From positions 1-54,592 of the forward strand of contig JARDZZ010000002.1 in assembly GCA_029240595.1 (NCBI GenBank): a stretch of DNA of 54,592 nt, in the 5' to 3' direction. The stretch comes from Nitrospira sp. (GTDB taxonomy: Bacteria; Nitrospirota; Nitrospiria; Nitrospirales; Nitrospiraceae). The notes under the pieces were generated by a model, which was given only the letters and a program-made list of their open reading frames with translations, was not told the origin of the DNA and ran no database searches. Position numbers and translations under genes: made by a program. Within the stretch, counting starts at the first letter, position 1. The number at the start of each line of letters is the position of its first letter. Below are positions 2,916-10,525 of the stretch, piece after piece.

Positions 2916-4463
2916 TCAAATCAAGTTTACCTTCTGCTCTCCTTGCGCCTGTTTTGTGGCCAAATACGCCAGCTTGTTCAAAGCATTCAGGTACGCCCTT
3001 GCCGACGCCGTAATAATGTCGGTGTCCGCGCCATGGCCCGACACGGTTCGTCCATCCTCTTGAACTCTGACGGAGACTTCGCCTTGGGCATCGGTCCCGC
3101 CGGTGATCGCCTTGACGACATACATGAGCAGCGTGCTTTTCGTCTGGGTAATGGCGGCAATTGTCCGGTATACGGCATCGACGGGGCCATCGCCGGTCCC
3201 CCTTTGGCTGAGAGACTTGCCGTCGATTTCCAATTCGACCGTGGCGGTCGGCACCTGATCGGTTCCACTGCTCACGCTGAAGGATTTCAAGGTGATCCGA
3301 TCGGCCATTTTGGCCAATTCCTCGGAGACGATCACCTCGAGATCTTCCTCGTAAATCTCCTTCTTATGATCGGCGAGCCTCTTAAAGCGCTCGAAGGCAT
3401 GGTTCACCTCTTCCTCTGTCAACTTGTACCCCAATTCTTCGAGGCGCTGGCGGAACGCATGGCGCCCGGAAAGCTTGCCCATGACCATTTTACTCTCGAC
3501 CAACCCGATCGATTCGGGCCGCATGATCTCATACGTGGTTTTGTCCTTTAGCAGTCCATCTTGATGGATGCCGGACGTATGGGCAAACGCATTGGCTCCC
3601 ACGATTGCCTTGTTCGGCTGCACCACCATGCCGGTAATTTTGCTGACCAGTCGACTCGTCTTGGAGATTTCTTCCGTGTGTATTCTGGTATCGGCCTGAT
3701 AGAGGTCTTTCCGCGTACGCAACCCCATCGCAATCTCTTCCAATGAAGTATTGCCGGCGCGCTCGCCGATCCCGTTGATCGTGCACTCGACTTGGCCGGC
3801 GCCCTCCATGACAGCCGCGAGACTATTGGCCACGGCGAGCCCTAGATCGTTGTGACAATGCACTGAAATGACCGCCTTGCCGCTGTTGGCTACCCGCTCC
3901 CTGATCCCTTTGATCAGCTTCCCGAATTCCTGAGGGATGGCATACCCCACGGTGTCAGGGATATTGACCGTCCCCGCGCCCGCTTCGATGACGGCTTCGA
4001 TCACCTCGTGCAGATAGGCGGGATCAGAGCGGCTCGCGTCCATCGGTGAGAACTCGACGTCTTCCACGTAACCCCTCGCCCGCTGTACCATTTCGACCGC
4101 GCGCTTCTTGGCTTCTTCACGCGTCATGCGAAATTGATGCTTCAGATGGATGTCCGACGTCGAGAGGAACGTGTGTATACGAACCTTCGGCGCACCTTTG
4201 AGGGCCTCCCAGGCACGGTCGATGTCCTCGGGGCGAGCCCGCGCAAGGCTGCAAATCGTCGGCCCTTCCACCTCCTGGGCAATGCGCCGCACCGCTTCGA
4301 AATCCCCGGGGGAACTATAGGCGAACCCGGCCTCGATAATGTCCACTCCAAGCCTGGCCAGCTGTTTCGCCACCATCACCTTTTCTTCCACGTTCATACT
4401 CGCGCCGGGAGATTGCTCCCCGTCACGCAATGTGGTGTCGAAAATTCTGATCATCCGTGTCAT
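2916..4463 (-). CDS. leuA: 2-isopropylmalate synthase
   Basis: 515 aa; [35 protein letters not shown]-terminal LeuA regulatory domain. Confidence 0.97.
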
Positions 4464-4625: not shown

Positions 4626-4665
4626 AAAAGCAAAAGCCTCCATCCCTTGGCCCAGGGACGGAGGC
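4626..4665 (-). terminator. T-box attenuator terminator
   Basis: GCCTCCGTCCCTGGGCCAAGGGATGGAGGC followed by TTTTGCTTTT on the minus strand; its 5' arm is shared with the antiterminator. Confidence 0.9.
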
Positions 4666-4957
4666 TTCGAAGACTCCGTGGTACCACCCTGATTCGGCTC
4701 GGACGTCACTCTCGTTGTCCGATGCCCTTCATTCGGCCCGTCACGAGGGCAAGGCGGAATCCATTACTCGGATTTCGTGGATCCAGGCTCGGAGGCGAGT
4801 TCAGCAAGATTTGGGTTGGCTCGCACCATCCGCCAACTCTCTGTCCTGAATGTTGGAACCAGCCCCCAGCTCCGTTCTCGCATCGTTCAAAGGCGCTGGC
4901 TGCCCGCTTTCAACATTCTGGTGTCCAAACCGTTGCTTACTACTCCTCGTCGTTGCC
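4626..4957 (-). promoter_or_regulatory. T-box riboswitch (leucine, specifier CUC) upstream of leuA
   Basis: Minus strand: kink-turn CGACGAGG/CCTCCGAG, AGTAGTA loop, helix AGCAACGGTTTGG/CCAAATCTTGCT, GAATGTTG/CAACATTC, specifier GAA-CTC-G (CTC at 4799-4797), T-box AATCAGGGTGGTACCACGG (4694-4676), antiterminator ACGGAG/CTCCGT, terminator. Confidence 0.92.
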
Positions 4958-4958
4958 G

Positions 4959-5759
4959 CTACCACTTCTGTTCGACGACTTCTCGTTTCGGCGGGGGTTG
5001 CTTACCCGCGAATTTCGTGAGCACAACGAACATGCGTTCGACCGGCCCAAGCAGGGCATACCCGGCGAACATGACAAATAGCATAACCTGGGGCCACGCC
5101 GCTACAAGAACTAACGCAAGAATGCCCCACACCAGGTAGGTGATGTGCTGTCGTCCTCGAAATTTCAGGTCCTTGAAGCTGCGGTACTTAATGGTGCTGA
5201 CCATAAGGAACGATAAGATCAGCGTCACGATCAGTACCGCGACCGGCTTGACCTCCGCGCCCACCCGAACAATGTAGTGGTCGAAAATCACCATACTGGC
5301 CACGACTCCCGCGGCAGCGGGAATCGCCAGGCCCGTAAAATACTTCCCGTCGGCCATCGTTGCGGTTGCATTGAACCGGGCGAGCCGAACCGCTCCCATG
5401 GCCACGTAGGCGAACATAACGGCGATGCCGAATGTGCCTTGCCCGCTCAAGGCCCACGAATAGAGCAAGAGTCCCGGTGCGACGCCGAAGGACACCAGAT
5501 CGGACAGGGAGTCGTATTCCAACCCAAAGTGGCTGGTGCTGTTCGTCATCCGAGCCGATTTTCCATCCAGAACGTCGAAGATCATGGCGACGAGGATGGC
5601 AATCGCCGCCGCCATATAATCGGCATTGAAGACGGACAAGACGGCAAAAATTCCGCAGAACAGATTGCCGGTCGTAAACAGATTCGGAATCAGGTGCATG
5701 GCCGCCTTGTGCCGTTTGGTGCCTTTGGCAAAGGATTGTCTAAGACCGGTGTTTTTCAT
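4959..5759 (-). CDS. pssA: CDP-diacylglycerol-serine O-phosphatidyltransferase
   Basis: 266 aa membrane protein with CDP-alcohol phosphotransferase motif (DVLDGKSARMTNSTSHFGLEYDSLSD). Confidence 0.93.
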   Translation of the reverse strand: MKNTGLRQSFAKGTKRHKAAMHLIPNLFTTGNLFCGIFAVLSVFNADYMAAAIAILVAMIFDVLDGKSARMTNSTSHFGLEYDSLSDLVSFGVAPGLLLYSWALSGQGTFGIAVMFAYVAMGAVRLARFNATATMADGKYFTGLAIPAAAGVVASMVIFDHYIVRVGAEVKPVAVLIVTLILSFLMVSTIKYRSFKDLKFRGRQHITYLVWGILALVLVAAWPQVMLFVMFAGYALLGPVERMFVVLTKFAGKQPPPKREVVEQKW

Positions 5760-10025: not shown

Positions 10026-10101
10026 TAGACAGGCTCCTACACAGCGGACGTGGTGTATGAAGGGCTGAGAACCTGGACGGTAAGAGAGCGCGGTGGAGAG
10101 G

Positions 10102-10525
10102 ACTTATAAGCCGGATTCTGTCCCGTCAAGGATTTGTTCCTCGACGGTGGTCATCATTTCTCTGGGATCCGAGTTACCTCGAACCTCAAGCGACCTACCC
10201 GAAGACCTCGGCCGGGCCAGCCGGTCGCCGCTTCAAAGGAAGCGACAGCTGTCTTCCTATTTGGTCTTGCATCGAGCGACGCTTACCGTGCCGGTGATGT
10301 CGCCATCCCCGCGGTGGGCTCTTACTCCACCGTTTCACCCTTACCTGATCCGCAGCGATTCGATTGGGGTCCCGTCGCTTTGGCCATCGGCGGTTTGTTT
10401 TCTGTGGTGCCGGTGTCGGATCGCTCCGCCTGGGCATTACCCAGCGCTCTGCCCATGAAGTCCGGACTTTCCTCTCGCGGCGTCACCGCCACGAGCGATC
10501 ACCTGGTCCTCTCCCTCGCGCAGAT
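10102..10525 (-). ncRNA. rnpB: RNase P RNA (bacterial type A)
   Basis: Minus strand has conserved 5' part (GAGAGGAAAGTCCGGACTTCATGGGCAGAG) and 3' part (ACAGAATCCGGCTTAT). Confidence 0.95.

Follow-up and report, generated by a model that had tools for sequence, protein, structure and literature searches.

What occupies the region between pssA and leuA in this Nitrospira genome, and could it control leuA and the genes behind it? The window, the whole analyzed stretch of 54,592 nucleotides from Nitrospira sp., contains an operon on the minus strand with ilvB, ilvN, ilvC, psd and pssA upstream of this region and leuA, a cupin gene, leuB and a gene for an NHL protein downstream of it, as assigned with Pfam and NCBIfam models. 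This is the gene order that was given by a first-pass annotation of the sequence, except for asd, the last gene of that order, which is not visible because the sequence of the window stops at this point. The upstream gene pssA (4959 to 5759; TIGR00473 above cut-off) and leuA for 2-isopropylmalate synthase (2916 to 4463; NF002086 and TIGR00973 above cut-off), the predicted regulated gene, frame the site. The best matches of the LeuA protein came from Nitrospira or Nitrospirae metagenome-assembled genomes, with 90 to 93% identity, and N. moscoviensis and “Ca. N. defluvii” were among the matches, which assigns the genome to Nitrospira or the Nitrospiraceae.

Positions 4957 to 4626 of the minus strand are a complete class I (transcriptional) T-box for tRNA-Leu(GAG) ahead of leuA. 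The best explanation for the locus as a whole, with a probability of about 0.9, is a class I T-box attenuator responding to tRNA-Leu(GAG), which acts on leuA and the genes behind it and carries an inserted repeat in Stem I.

The leader starts 1 nt past the stop codon of pssA, so that the few nucleotides proposed in the first pass were correct, with the 5′ strand of the Stem I base and the K-turn (GGC AAC GA C GAGG, 4957 to 4945). This strand pairs with CCTC-CGA-GCC, and the lower 3′ strand CCTCCGAGCC (4795 to 4786) was recognized in the sequence and in the family alignment. The base columns are near-invariant, and the GAGG/CCUC pairs were formed in 132 to 133 of 133 leaders. GAGG and the S-turn (loop E) AGTAGTA (4948 to 4938), which is conserved in the family alignment, lie opposite the specifier loop GAA-CTC (4802 to 4797), and CTC is a leucine codon that reads the anticodon GAG. 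Above it, the fold pairs AGCAACGGTTTGG (4937 to 4925) with CCAAATCTTGCT (4814 to 4803) into the upper Stem I helix, for which the family shows compensatory changes at many pairs. The distal AG bulge ACAGAGAG (T-loop motif, 4844 to 4837) matches the Rfam consensus acAGAGA, and its AGAG is invariant in the family alignment. It is followed by the distal helix TTGGC/GCCAA with an apical GGTG loop (4836 to 4816), which was placed by the Rfam alignment and contains covarying pairs. By analogy, the apical loop is the predicted contact to the tRNA elbow.

The true distal element of Stem I is ACAGAGAG together with UUGGC..GGUG..GCCAA (4844 to 4816), and not GAATGTTG/CAACATTC, which had been taken for the distal helix in the first pass. 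The latter belongs to a dispersed repeat inserted at 4920 to 4846, of which it forms the end stem, and was ruled out as a normal distal helix because it is absent from relatives in the same genus. Leaders of several deeper-branching genera (L032 to L041 and L047, except L042) possess a hairpin of about 24 nt with covarying pairs within the Stem I apical loop in the form GGTGG[hairpin]GGTGC, which adjoins the residues that presumably contact the elbow of the tRNA.

Downstream of Stem I, Stem II with its S-turn GAA..AGTA (4784 to 4757; Rfam alignment, strong covariation) and the Stem IIA/B hairpin GCCCTCGTGACGGGC (4750 to 4736; covariation) are followed by Stem III, GC(A)TCGGAC/GTCCGAGC (4725 to 4697), the strands of which are complementary and covary in the relatives. 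The T-box sequence AGGGTGGTACCACGG (4690 to 4676) is an exact match with an invariant core and the only exact match to the T-box core within the window; its TGGT can pair with the ACCA end of a tRNA. The antiterminator AGGG-bulge-ACGGAG/CTCCGT-CCCT (4690 to 4654) yielded −10.0 kcal/mol when imposed on this segment. It excludes the intrinsic terminator GAAGCCTCCGTCCCT..AGGGATGGAGGCTTT with its T-rich tail (4668 to 4626), a stem of 15 pairs that were formed in 115 to 132 of 132 family leaders. Apart from the distal helix, all motifs named in the first pass, the K-turn, S-turn, specifier, T-box sequence, antiterminator and terminator, were thus found in the sequence, in order and at their minus-strand places.

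Evaluation of the Rfam score needs to consider the insertion in Stem I. A search by E-value with the RF00230 covariance model resulted in a significant match at 4887 to 4651 (minus strand; 55.5 bits, E = 2.2e-11), which supports the assignment from the first pass but is below the gathering cut-off of 93 bits. The search of the window with curated thresholds returned no T-box match, and a standard annotation run would therefore miss this element. The score is low in part because the RF00230 alignment starts within the 75-nt insertion. None of 100 dinucleotide shuffles folded as well as the leader (z of −3.0). This was the only T-box found in the draft genome; another structured RNA of the window is the bacterial class A RNase P RNA at 10091 to 10514 (minus strand; RF00010, 280.9 bits). 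Besides the covariance match, the UGGN bulge fits the discriminator and the specifier fits the pathway. The element shares Stem I with K-turn, S-turn, specifier, AG bulge and apical loop, Stems II, IIA/B and III, the Stem II S-turn, the T-box sequence, the mutually exclusive antiterminator and terminator, and the compensatory changes with class I T-boxes of RF00230. It differs from them by the score below the gathering cut-off, the 75-nt insert, and the position immediately after a protein-coding gene of its own operon, where no promoter was recognizable.

Such leaders occur throughout the family. A T-box was present in 138 of 147 Nitrospiraceae genomes, nearly always as a single copy, and in all 109 of the 109 good-quality genomes (completeness of 90% or more and contamination of 5% or less). 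The gene following the T-box was leuA in nearly all family leaders that were read. Because 58 family relatives score above the gathering cut-off, automatic annotation may already flag T-boxes in the Nitrospiraceae. A phylum-wide draw of 246 genomes showed the T-box throughout the Nitrospiraceae and scattered in five other Nitrospirota families, where leuA followed at 13 of 14 loci and the 14th locus runs off its contig. It was absent from the sister family within the order, of which 16 genomes were among those listed.

Comparison of the leaders of the relatives demonstrated that the helices and the specifier are conserved and that the helices covary within the family, as would be predicted from the first-pass annotation. 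In 133 leaders trimmed of the arm, multi-state compensatory changes were present in Stems I, II, IIA/B and III, and the terminator showed compensatory changes at single pairs. Pairs of the upper Stem I helix had 41 to 71 double-changed sequences, which are raw counts without a shuffle baseline. If the positions did not pair, states such as UA, CG, GC and AU at a single pair would hardly be expected.

The identity of the tRNA partner is strongly supported by the sequences on both sides. The genome encodes tRNA-Leu(GAG) with the end ...GGCACCA, including the discriminator A and an encoded CCA, and the ACCA end is complementary to the UGGU bulge of the T-box. Among the 136 Nitrospiraceae leaders in which the specifier was read, 133 contained CTC, three contained CTG and none contained anything else. 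All of them specify leucine, as does the CTC codon that was matched to the enzyme encoded downstream in the first pass. The three leaders with CTG (L013, L020 and L171) represent a change within leucine, although their genomes keep tRNA-Leu(GAG). Loss of this tRNA was ruled out as the origin of the CTG specifiers, since G004, G006 and G024 keep a tRNA that is 99 to 100% identical.

These parts suggest the following sequence of events. RNA polymerase reading on from ilv-psd-pssA would enter the leader. If the tRNA-Leu is uncharged, two pairings would form, between its GAG anticodon and the CUC specifier and between its ACCA end and the UGGU bulge; these would hold the antiterminator and allow transcription of leuA. 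Charged tRNA would leave the terminator to form. Since the T-box follows pssA without a recognizable promoter, it is probably a mid-operon attenuator in the Nitrospiraceae. The first-pass annotation had proposed that the leader decouples leuA from the upstream ilv, psd and pssA genes. The anatomy fits this proposal, with the leader abutting the pssA stop codon, which is at most 3 nt away in 78 of 132 family loci. It is likely that the T-box works within a longer transcript, and leucine status could then cut leuA off from ilvBNC.

Alternatively, the leader may have its own promoter within pssA and may be a conventional 5′ UTR instead of a mid-operon attenuator, which is possible but on the improbable side. 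Five leaders from two other Nitrospirota families possess TTGACA and, after 17 or 18 nt, CATAAT or TAAGAT, located 12 to 16 nt before the leader, and one of these loci shares the order ilvB-ilvN-ilvC-psd-pssA-leuA-leuB; a few leaders of the Nitrospiraceae also score well. In the window, however, no promoter-like site was found between 4440 and 5800, and the best score before the leader was below the mean of the shuffles. The family leaders as a group were not above shuffles for a sigma-70-like promoter, with 9% of 134 at a shuffle P of ≤0.05, whereas the same scan flagged 40% of 20 tRNA genes of the window genome. The scan used the E. coli consensus, so that sites unlike this consensus, or located farther up in pssA, escape it.

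The attenuator of the window departs from those of its relatives by about 75 extra nucleotides in the 5′ strand of Stem I (4920 to 4846, minus strand). This arm, with the ends CAGAATG...CATTCAG, folds as a single hairpin and is an internally deleted match to a palindrome of about 125 nt that is located at the same T-box site in several other Nitrospira. The palindrome is dispersed, with at least 11 matches in the window genome, at least 25 and at least 14 in two congeneric genomes, and at least 23 to 42 matches each in G130, G025, G061, G101 and G046; for some of the genomes, a maximum of 40 candidates was scored. A second copy is positioned between the terminator and leuA (4624 to 4502, minus strand), forms a hairpin of −55.5 kcal/mol and is up to 82% identical to dispersed copies. 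In many family genomes, the gap between terminator and leuA contains an element of 100 to 150 nt with the common core CTCAACGTACC..GGTACGCCTC, which is missing in others. A search of plasmids with the arm sequence gave no match.

In a tree of 126 pssA plus leuA sequences, the arm was located in a clade comprising 30 Nitrospira genomes (SH-aLRT 99) and in the window alone, and parsimony on this tree indicated two gains. Within the genus of the window, one of six readable genomes possesses the arm and five relatives do not. Since this one genome is a draft (85% complete, 264 contigs), an assembly error at the palindrome is conceivable as a possible source of the window arm. Long and short forms interleave within the clade of 30, which needs at least five changes, and this may be due either to short forms arising by deletion or to long forms arising by re-insertion. 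The short form is present in 19 genomes, with 17 distinct sequences of the 76-nt class. It builds a 7-pair hairpin with the pair states GC, GU and AU, and in its register 79% of the cells pair, including an eighth, non-pairing position, compared to 25 to 69% in shifted registers. Where the ends are CAGAATG...CATTCTG, the short forms appear to be remnants of the repeat.

It is unlikely that the arm was not gained twice but stems from one ancestral insertion that was mostly lost, or from an exchange of the leader region between groups. The window arm resembles the T-box inserts of the other clade (83 to 89% identity over 47 nt) about as closely as it resembles the most similar copy elsewhere in the window genome (85% over 46 nt), and end sequences and insertion site agree, as would be expected for a common origin. 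The stretch compared is short, however, and the two gains required by parsimony, together with the five arm-free relatives in the genus, argue for separate insertions.

Within the 5′ strand of Stem I, the repeat copy is flanked by the specifier-side helix and the AG bulge. As a self-folding element, the arm would protrude as a third helix at a junction, with the tRNA-contacting motifs intact, and the insertion has apparently left the switch unbroken. The arm could nevertheless weaken Stem I and make the window copy less functional. That the T-box was damaged by the insertion and is decaying in the window lineage, with a constitutive terminator or loss of tRNA control, is very improbable. In favor of this reading, the arm is the chief deviation of the leader from the plan of the family, occurs only in the window genome among the readable genomes of its genus and comes with one of the lowest Rfam scores of the family (55.5 bits). 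Against it, there is no disruption of the S-turn, specifier, AG bulge, apical loop, T-box bulge, antiterminator or terminator, and the 30-genome clade has retained the repeat, or a remnant of its hairpin, at this site in T-boxes that are otherwise conserved.

The repeat resembles REP and MITE elements (PMC3733652, PMC3116915, PMC10969869) in being short, multicopy, palindromic and dispersed; this is a likeness by type, with no match to a named family. Multiple genomic copies and a palindrome forming one hairpin agree with this type. A companion transposase, PF01797 (Y1_Tnp, RAYT), was not found in the draft genome of the window, nor in G130 despite at least 23 repeat matches there, and the idea that Y1/RAYT transposases move the repeat was not supported, given this lack of consistent co-occurrence. 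According to one review, pneumococcal BOX repeats may contain T-box motifs (PMC10969869), which is the reverse of a repeat inside a T-box.

T-boxes upstream of leuA are predicted to read tRNA-Leu with a GAG anticodon in Geobacter (PMC2700814, PMC2494555). The window element shares with them the position before leuA, tRNA-Leu(GAG) and a Gram-negative lineage, but belongs to a different phylum. The part of the T-box literature that was covered did not mention the Nitrospirae and contained no report of a T-box from Nitrospira or Nitrospirota, nor did the covered literature contain one of a dispersed repeat within Stem I. As a T-box, the element of the window is of a familiar and ordinary type, and its repeat-bearing Stem I is new relative to the literature covered.

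These data make tRNA-sensing leaders a fixed feature of leucine synthesis throughout the Nitrospiraceae, which are Gram-negative nitrifiers and include the nitrite-oxidizing Nitrospira. It may tentatively be considered, as a doubtful proposal, that a mobile palindromic repeat was taken up as a structural part of the tRNA-reading arm of a riboswitch, with two separate lineages sharing the Stem I site, and that one clade has retained it as a base-paired side arm by which the sensing of tRNA is tuned. Leaders with no arm, a short arm, a 125-nt arm or an arm in the apical loop form a natural series, which bears on how much extra RNA the tRNA ruler of Stem I tolerates and on whether a riboswitch can acquire functional parts from mobile repeats.
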